From NCBI RefSeq assembly GCF_900129375.1, contig NZ_FQVN01000003.1, forward strand, positions 124,001 to 188,000: a DNA stretch of 64,000 nucleotides, given 5' to 3'. How positions within the stretch are numbered: the stretch's first letter is position 1; the number at the start of each line of letters is the position of its first letter. This document shows, piece after piece, positions 1 to 33,842 of this stretch. Origin of the DNA: Streptoalloteichus hindustanus. GTDB lineage: Bacteria; Actinomycetota; Actinomycetes; Mycobacteriales; Pseudonocardiaceae. A program made the translations under genes and the position numbers. Under the pieces are notes generated by a model. The model had not been told where the DNA came from. It was given only the letters and a program-made list of their open reading frames with translations, and searched no databases.

Positions 1-285
1 GCGCAGCGCCGTCACCAGCCGACGCCCGTCCGGGTCGTCGCCGACCACCGTCACCAGCTCCGCGGTCGCGCCCAGCGCCGCGAGGTTCGCCGCGCTGTTG
101 CCGGCCCCGCCGGGGGCGCACGCGTCGCTGCGCACCTCCAGCACGGGCGCGGGGGCCTCCCGGCACAGCCGCCGGCACTCGCCGGACAGCCACCCGTCGA
201 GAATCGCGTCGCCCAAGACCACCACGCGCGGCCGGCGTTCGGCCAACCGCAGCGGCAGGTCGGCGGTGAGCGGGGTCGTGCTCAT
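1..285 (-). CDS. PfkB-family sugar kinase, HldE/RfaE1-like (3' end beyond window)
   Basis: Only the first 95 codons are in the window and the frame is open to the left edge. Translation begins MSTTPLTADL and contains a kinase-like opening strand (VVVLGDAILDGW) and the PfkB glycine-rich signature PGGAGNSAANLAALGA. This resembles the N-terminus of D-glycero-beta-D-manno-heptose-7-phosphate kinase and related carbohydrate kinases. The start ATG overlaps the stop of the upstream GT9 gene (ATGA), so the two are probably translationally coupled. It would be a second heptose-kinase-like gene besides the complete HldE at 7896-9272. Whether it also has an adenylyltransferase domain cannot be seen here. 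Confidence 0.85.
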   Translation of the reverse strand, partial: MSTTPLTADLPLRLAERRPRVVVLGDAILDGWLSGECRRLCREAPAPVLEVRSDACAPGGAGNSAANLAALGATAELVTVVGDDPDGRRLVTALR

Positions 286-21949: not shown

Positions 21950-22743
21950 GGCCACCGACCGGCCGCGACACCAACTCCCGGTCCCCCGACTACGACCACC
22001 TGGCGCCGCTGTTCCACGAGATGGCGGCGCTGACCGACACCGACCCCCGCCGCGCCGTGCTGCGGGAGAAGCTGGTCACCGAGCACCTCCCCGTCGCGCA
22101 GCACATCGCCCGCCGGTTCAGCAACCGGGGCGAGCCGCACGAGGACCTCGTGCAGGTCGCCACGCTCGGCCTGATCAACGCCGTCGACCGGTTCCAGCCC
22201 GACCGCGGCGTCGACTTCCTGTCCTTCGCGGTGCCCACGATCATGGGCGAGGTCCGGCGGCACTTCCGGGACACCGGCTGGGCGGTCCGGGTCCCGCGCC
22301 GGCTCAAGGAGCTGCACCTGTCGATCAACGCCGCGATCGGGGAGCTGTCCCAGCGGCTCGGGCGCGCGCCCACCCCCAGCGAGCTGGCCGGGCACCTGGG
22401 CATCTCGCAGGAGGAGGTCTTCGAGGGGCTGGAGGCCACCAACGCCTACCGCAGCGCCTCGTTGGACGACATGCTCGTCGCCGACGACGACTCGGTGTCG
22501 CTGGGCGACGCCATCGGCGAGGTCGACACCGAGCTGGCGCAGGTCGAGTACCGCGAGACGCTCAAGCCGTTGCTGGCCCGCCTGCCCGAGCGCGAGCGCA
22601 CGGTGCTCGTGCTCCGCTTCTTCGGCAACATGACGCAGACCCAGATCGCCGAGCGCATCGGCGTGTCCCAGATGCACGTCTCCCGCCTGCTCGCCAGGAC
22701 GCTCGCGCAACTGCGCGAGGAGCTGCGCGATGCGACGGGATGA
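21946..22743 (+). CDS. SigB/SigF-family RNA polymerase sigma factor
   Basis: A 265-residue group 3 sigma factor with regions 2, 3 and 4. Region 2 has EDLVQVATLGLINAVDRFQPDRGVDFLSFAVPTIMGEVRRHFRD. Region 3 follows PRRLKELHLSINAAIGELSQRLGR. Region 4 has LPERERTVLVLRFFGNMTQTQIAERIGVSQMHVSRLLAR as the -35-binding helix-turn-helix. The GTG start overlaps the anti-sigma stop and has GGGAGG upstream. By family it recognises GNNT-N14-16-GGGTA promoters, several of which appear in this window. Its 3' end overlaps the GT9 gene by 14 bases. Confidence 0.95.
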   Translation: MRPPTGRDTNSRSPDYDHLAPLFHEMAALTDTDPRRAVLREKLVTEHLPVAQHIARRFSNRGEPHEDLVQVATLGLINAVDRFQPDRGVDFLSFAVPTIMGEVRRHFRDTGWAVRVPRRLKELHLSINAAIGELSQRLGRAPTPSELAGHLGISQEEVFEGLEATNAYRSASLDDMLVADDDSVSLGDAIGEVDTELAQVEYRETLKPLLARLPERERTVLVLRFFGNMTQTQIAERIGVSQMHVSRLLARTLAQLREELRDATG

Positions 22744-23686
22744 GCACGGGGACGCGCTCCCGCCGCGCGTGGTGGTGCTCCGCTCGTTGAAGCTCGGCGA
22801 CCTGCTGGTCGCGGTGCCCGCGTTGCGCGCGTTGCGCCGGGCGTTCCCCGAGCACCTGCTCCAGCTCGCCACGAGCGGGTGGCTCGCCCCGGTCGTGCGG
22901 CTGACCGGCGCGGTCGACCAGGTGCTGCCCACCAGGGGCCTCGCGCCGCTGGGGCCGTTGGCCTGGCGGCCGGACGTGGCGGTCAACCTGCACGGCGCCG
23001 GCCCCCGCAGCAGCGAGGTGCTCGACGCGGTGCGCCCGCGCCGGCGCATCGGGCACGCCGGAGCCGGGTGGACCGGCCCGGCGTGGCGGGACGACATCCA
23101 CGAACGCGACCGGTGGTGCCGGCTGCTCGCGGCGCACGACGTGCCCGCCGACCCGGCGGACCTGGGACTGGCCCGGCCCCACGTGCCCAGCCCGGCGCCG
23201 GGCGCCGTCGTGCTGCACCCCGGCGCCGCGCACGGCAGCCGGCACTGGCCGGTCGAGCGCTTCGTGTCGGTCGCGCGGACGCTCGTCGGGCGCGGGTTGC
23301 CGGTGGTGGTCACGGGCGCGGAGCGGGAGCGCGACCGGGCGGTGGAGGTCGCCGAGCGCGCCGACCTGCCTGGCGCTTCGGTGCTGGCCGGGCACACCGA
23401 CCTCTCCCAGCTCGCCGCGCTCGTCGCCGACGCCAGCCTGGTGATCTCGGCGGACACGGGTGTCGCGCACCTGTCCTACGCCTATCGCACACCTTCGGTG
23501 GTGCTCTTCGGCCCGGTGCCAGCCGCCTGGTGGGGGCCGCCGGCCGGGGGGCCGCACGTGGCGTTGTCCGACGACGCGGTGCGGCGGGGCGACCCGTTCG
23601 CCGCCGACCCCGACCCGGCGTTGCTCGGGGTCGGCGTGGGCGACGTGCTCGCCGCCGTGGACCGTCTCCTGGCCGGCCACCGCTGA
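22730..23686 (+). CDS. Glycosyltransferase family 9 (heptosyltransferase-like)
   Basis: A 318-residue GT9 protein. The acceptor lobe has VVVLRSLKLGDLLVAVPALRALRRAFP; the donor lobe has VVLHPGAAHGSRHWPVERFVSVA and LVISADTGVAHLSYAYRTPSVVLFGP. GCGAGGAGCTGCGCG precedes the ATG, which lies inside the end of the sigma-factor gene. Expression is therefore probably coupled to the stress regulator. Unlike the other GT9 proteins here it lacks the C-terminal Cys cluster. Donor is inferred as ADP-heptose or similar. Confidence 0.92.
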   Translation: MRRDEHGDALPPRVVVLRSLKLGDLLVAVPALRALRRAFPEHLLQLATSGWLAPVVRLTGAVDQVLPTRGLAPLGPLAWRPDVAVNLHGAGPRSSEVLDAVRPRRRIGHAGAGWTGPAWRDDIHERDRWCRLLAAHDVPADPADLGLARPHVPSPAPGAVVLHPGAAHGSRHWPVERFVSVARTLVGRGLPVVVTGAERERDRAVEVAERADLPGASVLAGHTDLSQLAALVADASLVISADTGVAHLSYAYRTPSVVLFGPVPAAWWGPPAGGPHVALSDDAVRRGDPFAADPDPALLGVGVGDVLAAVDRLLAGHR

Positions 23687-23746
23687 GCCCCGTGGGCGGA
23701 ATTCGCTCTGTGCTTCGAGTTGCCGCGCCCTGATCTGGGCTGAACG

Positions 23747-24020
23747 CGCACGCGCGTGACTACTGCTCTGAAGTAAGGGGGAACCCCCACTTCAAACATC
23801 CCACGCAGGTCTGACAAAAACGCCGCTGTCAGGGGTCGGAGACCAATAGATCACCCGAAGTGGGACCGCACCTCCACAGGTACGCACGCGCGCGTGACTA
23901 CTGGCCTGTAGTAAGGGGGACCCCCACTTCGAACATCTCACGCGGGCCTGACAAAAACGCCGGCGCCAGGGGCTGAAGGCCGATAGATCACCCGAAGTGG
24001 GACGGCACTTCCTCAGGCGT
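23747..24020. repeat. Two tandem copies of a ~137-bp structured intergenic element
   Basis: Copy 1 is about 23747-23882 and copy 2 about 23883-24020. Shared blocks include CGCGTGACTACT, AGTAAGGGGG, CCCCCACTTC, CTGACAAAAACGCC and TAGATCACCCGAAGTGGGAC. Each copy can form a G-run/C-run hairpin (GGGGG / CCCCC), and CCCACTTC can pair alternatively with the later GAAGTGGG. A small hairpin reads GGTC-GGA-GACC in copy 1 and GGCT-GAA-GGCC in copy 2, so pairing is kept despite base changes. No coding frame is shared. It lies between convergent genes and the transcribed strand is unknown. It may be a duplicated ncRNA or attenuator, or a dispersed repeat. Confidence 0.8.
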
Positions 24021-24188
24021 ACGCGCGCGGGGCGAGGAAGACAAATCCAAGCAGGACCGCCCGACAGTCGATGGCTCGACGCCCCCGAGCAGCTCGCAGC
24101 GGACATCGGCGTACGCGCGAACGCGCCACACCCGGGAAAGACCCGGATGCGCGCGTCGTCACGCCTGCCGCGTCAGCCCGCCGCGAGC

Positions 24189-24476
24189 TCAGCCCCGCCC
24201 GAGAAGTCGGTCGCGGAGCTCGGTGAGGTAGCTGTCGTCCGCCCGGTAGAGCTGGTCGGTGTCGATGTCGTGCGACAGGGCCGTGCCCGGCTCCCGGTCC
24301 AGCAGGTACCCGATCGTCTCCTCGACCAGGTGGCGTTCGTCGACCTCCGGGATCTGGAGGTCGGCGAGCACCTGCTCGGCGACCGTCACCCGGTGGTGGG
24401 TGATCTCCTGGCCCTCGCCGACAGTCGCCGCGAACTCGTGCGGCCCCATCGGCAACACCTCGATCGTCTGACGCAC
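24189..24476 (-). CDS. Conserved hypothetical protein
   Basis: A 95-residue acidic soluble protein (MRQTIEVLPMGPHEFAATVGEGQEITHHRVTV and so on, ending in a helix SYLTELRDRLL). No domain is recognised with confidence. The GTG start at 24476 is preceded by GGGAGC inside the end of the DUF2267 gene, three bases after its stop, so the two form an operon. Proteins of this type often accompany DUF2267 genes in actinobacteria. Confidence 0.75.
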   Translation of the reverse strand: MRQTIEVLPMGPHEFAATVGEGQEITHHRVTVAEQVLADLQIPEVDERHLVEETIGYLLDREPGTALSHDIDTDQLYRADDSYLTELRDRLLGRG

Positions 24477-33730: not shown

Positions 33731-33842
33731 TGCTTTCCAGAGTTCGCCTCGCCCGGGCGGTTGGGGTGCCTGAGAGTTTCCGGGGAGTGGTTGCTCCTTC
33801 GGCGCCCCGCCACGTCGTCGGGGTCTCTCCCGCTCGGGTTCC
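33729..33842 (-). promoter_or_regulatory. Glycine riboswitch (single aptamer)
   Basis: On the minus strand the leader of sdaA contains, in order, GCGGGAGAGACCCC, the hallmark GCGCCGAAGGAGCAA, CCCCGGAAACTCTCAGGCA and GCGAACTCTGGAAAGC. These are the conserved blocks of the gcvT/glycine aptamer in the form seen in actinobacteria. Only one set of blocks is present, so this is a singlet, not a tandem pair. It lies about 145 bases upstream of the sdaA start codon and should switch the gene on with glycine. Confidence 0.92.

Follow-up and report, generated by a model that had tools for sequence, protein, structure and literature searches.

The question raised by this locus is what kind of element has been duplicated between two convergent genes of Streptoalloteichus hindustanus, and which of its features has been kept. 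The locus lies in a stretch of 64,000 nucleotides (contig NZ_FQVN01000003.1, positions 124,001 to 188,000 of the forward strand), referred to here as the window. A preliminary description, made from the sequence alone, had placed a tandem duplication of ~137 bp at 23747-24020 and proposed a new structured RNA with mutually exclusive, attenuator-like folds, or else an independent small RNA or a dispersed repeat family.

Results

The tandem pair belongs to a dispersed family

The tandem duplication is real: within 23744-24030 a direct repeat of 115 nt with 82% identity has a start-to-start spacing of 137, and an additional 44-nt block is shared between the two tandem copies with 86% identity at a spacing of 138. 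The limits first given for it were about right, the units proper being two stretches of 118 bp (Table 1), and the setting between convergent genes was correctly recognised, with flanking open reading frames at 22730-23686 (plus strand) and 24189-24476 (minus strand). In BLASTN searches of the same genome the pair recurs on contig C18 (95% identity, E 3.6e-130) in a block of ~320 bp that includes both units at 94.5% identity, a single copy is present on contig C9 (90% identity), and ~30 more partial matches are scattered elsewhere. Using a covariance model (R1) of the 75-nt core with a threshold of E<3e-4 in the own genome, we found 57 copies. The fact that BLASTN re-finds the pair and that the model finds this many copies excludes chance as the origin of the pair.

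Table 1. Features of the tandem pair and their positions in the window
Feature	Position	Strand	Remark
Copy 1 of dispersed element, 118 bp	23750..23867	- (predicted promoter strand)	extents by comparison with single copy on C9, -2..115 around core
Copy 1, core match	23752-23826		81.4 bits
Copy 1, TGTCAG box, PafBC -26-type motif	23811..23816	-	motif from PMC5656591, PMC8151990
Copy 1, TG at -15/-14	23803/23802	-	
Copy 1, -10-like hexamer GATGTT	23795..23800	-	A-11 and T-7 invariant; 10 nt from TGTCAG box
Copy 1, palindrome GGGGGTTCCCCC	23777..23788	-	putative transcription start near 23788
Copy 2 of dispersed element, 118 bp	23888..24005	-	direct repeat and extent comparison
Copy 2, core match	23890-23963		74.8 bits
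Copy 2, TGTCAG box	23948..23953	-	
Copy 2, -10-like hexamer GATGTT	23932..23937	-	TG at 23940/23939
Copy 2, palindrome GGGGGTCCCCC	23915..23925	-	putative transcription start near 23925
Block holding both copies	23713..24033	.	94.5% identical to C18 block amid other genes; 325-nt alignment, L030 vs L031
GAAGTGGG, arm of the alternative fold first proposed	23857..23864	+	subtype-specific, not conserved

The dispersed repeat family that had been offered as one alternative is thus borne out, and homologues extend beyond this genome. The other genome of the genus, S. tenebrarius DSM 40477, holds at least 32 copies, and among 150 genomes from the taxonomic family 22 have weaker relatives (both Streptoalloteichus genomes counted among the 22), as do a few more elsewhere in the order. 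When 296 genomes sampled across the phylum were searched, the only match was in the window's own genome, from which we conclude that the false-positive rate is low. Across the family the unit measures ~118-125 bp, with a conserved core of 45-75 nt. An order-level relative (L146, f5 g39) has three core copies in tandem within ~210 bp, and the tandem arrangement is therefore old in the family. A degenerate pattern of the element had no match in viral contigs, on which ground a phage origin was rejected, and the open-licence papers searched held no description of the repeat.

Two other short sequences were seen near copies. A palindrome, GTCC(N4-6)GGAC, adjoins several of them (L047, L048, L051, L119-L121, L125 and the flanks of L034); it is also present at L211, where S. 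tenebrarius lacks the element, and may be a separate repeat of its own. In other genera TTGTCCACAG, which resembles an actinobacterial DnaA-box sequence, is located some tens of bases past several relatives (L066, L072, L075, L082 and L083).

The proposed RNA switch is not conserved

Helices can be drawn in both copies of the window and in those on C18 and C9, and the two structural observations behind the RNA proposal are present as described. The small stem GGTC/GACC (23834-23837 and 23841-23844), which reads GGCT/GGCC in the other copy, holds one compensated pair within the subtype of this genome; in S. tenebrarius the stem is broken. The switch helix between CCCACTTC (23786-23793) and GAAGTGGG is confined to the window's subtype; in S. 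tenebrarius the members of that subtype (3/3) all carry mismatches in it without compensation, and inspection of the copies showed that the downstream arm is absent from most others.

Measured against dinucleotide shuffles, the 57 copies gave a mean folding z of -0.48 on the plus strand and -0.56 on the minus strand, compared to -0.96 for nearby upstream control DNA; that is, no excess folding stability. Covariation in the central hairpin and its extension was no higher than in shuffled letters. At the gathering and E-value thresholds Rfam returned nothing relevant to the element; the sole Rfam match in the window is a glycine riboswitch aptamer (RF00504) at 33748-33842 on the minus strand, with 59.3 bits. 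Lacking excess stability and covariation, and with its switch arm broken in every S. tenebrarius copy of the subtype, the RNA-switch reading fails. Together with the missing Rfam match and the lack of a leader context, this leaves a structured plus-strand RNA or attenuator with mutually exclusive folds largely refuted, and we regard it as very improbable in spite of the helices that can be drawn. A Rho-dependent or intrinsic terminator was also rejected, as the element has neither a T-run nor a folding excess and the terminator-like hairpins lie outside it.

Copies lie between convergent genes and persist at orthologous sites

According to a simple GC-frame gene caller, 57/57 copies are intergenic. 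When copies are collapsed to sites, 30 sites are convergent, 17 codirectional and 1 divergent, with 2 unresolved. Convergent placement (30/48 sites) compares to an expected 17%, intergenic regions of 150 bp or more in the background being distributed 16:51:25 among convergent, codirectional and divergent arrangements, and the excess is significant by Fisher's test (p 1.4e-7) as well as by a binomial test by length (1.5e-11). At the codirectional sites the element lies on the gene strand in 13 cases and on the opposite strand in 4. Strong terminator-like hairpins between element and gene are more common than chance on both sides (16/42 and 9/29, compared to 1.7 and 1.0 expected), and the elements thus show a tendency to be flanked by terminators.

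Many of these sites are occupied in both species. Within syntenic blocks, S. tenebrarius carries a copy at the corresponding position for 7/8 sites of this genome, and at 21 further sites found by their gene flanks alone the element is kept in 12. The cores at orthologous sites are 73-91% identical, whereas flanks of 100 bp hardly exceed alignment noise, and at the flank-located sites the element is often the sole alignable piece of the intergenic region. In 10/13 cases the closest copy is the orthologue, which argues against homogenisation of the copies by gene conversion. The sites without a counterpart include recent amplifications (the C18 pair and L052), and the family is therefore both retained and gained or lost.

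The conserved core reads as a PafBC-type promoter

The core has the form TTGTCAGAC-N8-GATGTT-N6-GGGGGTTCCCCC on the minus strand, and as a pattern it can be written TGTC(A/G)G-N10-NANNNT, with TG at -15/-14, which makes an extended -10 of the form TGnNANNNT, and GGGG...CCCC 6-7 nt later. TGTC and NANNNT are found together in 53/57 copies, at a spacing of exactly 10 nt in 51 of them. G-14, A-11 and T-7 are present in 48/48 aligned copies and T-15 in 38; since the copies were anchored on TGTC, its own invariance is partly by construction, which does not apply to G-14, A-11 and T-7. The palindrome of a G-run and a C-run follows the hexamer in 57/57 copies, after 6 nt in 44 and after 7 nt in 13. 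Across copies and genera the gap between its two runs ranges from 0 to 10 nt with both runs preserved, which fits a hairpin and not a rigid operator.

This arrangement is that of promoters controlled by PafBC, the regulator of the RecA/LexA-independent response to DNA damage, for which the consensus tTGTCRgtg-8nt-TannnT has been reported (PMC5656591) and, in Mycobacterium tuberculosis, TGTCGG or TGTCAG-10N-TA-3N-T (PMC8151990). Activated by ssDNA, PafBC recruits SigA-RNAP through sigma adaptation at a -26 motif (PMC11804915). Both PafB and PafC are encoded next to pafA in this genome; the HTH domain of PafC (PF19187) is matched with an E of 1.2e-43, and among PDB structures the best matches are PafC (7p5x) and the PafB chain partnering it. 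The likeness was recognised post hoc, with a rough chance of 0.3% per 75-nt element on either strand before other noticeable motifs are counted.

One position does not follow the consensus. At -12 the copies scored in this genome (53) have G, A or C but in no case T, which suggests that the activity of the predicted promoter may be weak or absent, and the motif possibly silent or a decoy. In other genera the relatives retain A-11 and T-7, with the full TANNNT in 10/30; two of them (L075 and L082) match TGTCRGTG-N8-TANNNT exactly. Upstream of recA of S. tenebrarius we found TGTCGGTGCCGCGTCGTAGCGT, a recA promoter with T at -12.

Other readings of the core were tried and rejected. Sigma motifs unrelated to PafBC (ECF GGAAC) misfit in their spacing, and many copies read GGGGGACCCC; a conserved leaderless peptide could be started by the RTG that follows the -10 in 37/57 copies, but frames and stops differ.

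Across the order, DUF222 (13E12) genes have a PafBC-type TGTCRG-N9/10-TANNNT directly 5' of the start codon (L215, L217, L226, L227, L230 and L232; L164, L175, L180, L188 and L192), as expected of leaderless damage-inducible genes. The element model has no match at these motif-bearing loci, which indicates that the element goes beyond an ordinary PafBC promoter.

Within the unit a terminator is conserved only in a subtype of three copies of this genome (L052, L058 and L114), in which a strong terminator-like hairpin stands 3' of the predicted promoter (strand z of -3.96 for L052). In genus g7 (L067, L089, L070, L091 and others) a second G-run follows the 5' palindrome, giving GGGGG-loop-CCCCCC-A-GGGGG, and in the predicted transcript either of the two G-runs could serve as partner for the C-run, giving mutually exclusive hairpins.

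Candidate partners in mobility

We looked for an enzyme that could mobilise the element. The Y1 transposase domain PF01797 has 0 matches in the own genome, and a RAYT partner was accordingly rejected. HNH genes of the DUF222/13E12 type were rejected as well, there being none in the genus and no match of the element model at DUF222 loci; only the promoter motif is common to both. At empty sites the flanks are too diverged for a clean target-site duplication or insertion junction to be read, and no TIR, as would mark a MITE, is apparent at the unit ends.

Relatives in g7 also lie in frame within genes. They occupy the hypervariable KS-AT linkers of polyketide synthases (PKS), with about one per 4.8-kb module (L066, L067, L087, L089, L091 and L139-L141), and since the hit spacing equals one module, much of this copy number comes from module duplication. 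Others are in an NRPS (L070), a methylmalonyl-CoA mutase (L065) and a caspase/EACC1 protein (L069).

Discussion

We lean towards the reading that the element is a REP-like mobile repeat which carries, on its minus strand, a predicted PafBC-type promoter followed by a 5' hairpin. Under DNA damage, PafBC would recruit RNA polymerase to this promoter, and a short RNA would start within the GGGGG run (at ~23788 and ~23925 in the two window copies). Its 5' end would fold into a GGGG/CCCC hairpin from the G4-5/C4-5 palindrome, and the RNA would run toward the 3' end and the terminator of the neighbouring gene, usually in antisense. The three-copy subtype with its own terminator would yield a discrete RNA of ~80 nt, like a small-RNA gene. 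Copies would spread by a copying process and then be kept or lost site by site. The independent small RNA of the preliminary description is possible, with another predicted anatomy than the one drawn at first, as the kept signal reads as a minus-strand promoter.

The element can be compared with several known systems. Like REPs and BIMEs of the GTAG/CGTC type (Di Nocera et al. 2013, PMC3733652), it is short, dispersed and palindrome-bearing, lies between convergent or codirectional genes, is sometimes found in frame in genes and occurs in tandem or in groups; many REP families are without a known transposase (PMC3733652). REPs, however, are single tagged stem-loops of 20-40 bp (PMC3733652), whereas here the unit is 118-125 bp long and holds a promoter motif, and in the copies listed the central stem bears no GTAG/CGTC tag at its foot. 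Actinobacteria are not mentioned in the text of that paper (PMC3733652). The element thus behaves like a REP or ERIC in its placement, departs from REPs in size, tag and RAYT, and agrees with the PafBC promoter motif except at T-12.

With the PafBC promoters of mycobacteria and other actinobacteria (RecA-NDp, or recA P1) it shares TGTC(A/G)G, the 10-nt spacing, A-11 and T-7. Known PafBC sites control repair genes and, from the motifs described above, also DUF222 genes. The element's motif, in contrast, is part of a repeat and mostly points to the 3' end of a convergent gene; in this genus it has no T-12, and the GGGG...CCCC palindrome comes after it. The REP13E12/DUF222 genes of related genomes have the same promoter motif upstream, yet Streptoalloteichus has no DUF222 gene. 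Further likenesses, for which we claim no sequence relation, are to ERIC (a unit of ~120 bp, intergenic and near 3' ends) and to Rickettsia palindromic elements (RPE), which, like the g7 relatives here, lie in frame inside proteins. Neither ERIC nor RPE is known to have a DNA-damage promoter.

It is conceivable, if doubtful in our judgement, that the element is a plain REP- or MITE-like repeat with no present function, that its promoter-like motif is either left over from the copying agent or the recognition signal for it, and that convergent intergenic sites merely tolerate insertion. Placement resembling that of known REPs (PMC3733652), the tandem pairs, the transfer of the two-unit block to another site, the in-frame relatives inside PKS, NRPS, methylmalonyl-CoA mutase and caspase genes and the missing T-12 would all suit such a repeat. 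The retention at orthologous sites speaks against it, as functionless copies should decay along with their flanks, and here cores survive where the flanks have diverged beyond alignment.

An improbable alternative is a site acting at the level of DNA, for gyrase, a nucleoid protein or another regulator, comparable to BIME/REP sites between convergent genes, where positive supercoils accumulate. The strong convergent bias, the flanking terminator-like hairpins and the conservation of sequence and not of fold could be explained in this way, but the exact spacing of a directional promoter motif, the 13:4 orientation bias at codirectional sites and the variable gap between G-run and C-run, unusual for a rigid operator, fit it poorly.

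Short dispersed repeats are common, and their function is a long-standing question. In this family the conserved part can be read as a directional signal, a putative stress promoter with a 5' hairpin, kept at orthologous sites, and the relatives in frame in polyketide synthase linkers show the same element entering proteins. A bolder version, which we rate as rather unlikely, is that some 50 sites have been seeded by a mobile element with predicted DNA-damage-inducible promoters of the PafBC type, whose short 5'-hairpin RNAs, mostly antisense to convergent gene ends, would constitute a genome-wide family of damage-fired small RNAs or a set of transcription-collision devices. The family also suggests that a DNA-damage regulon can be rewired by a mobile repeat.
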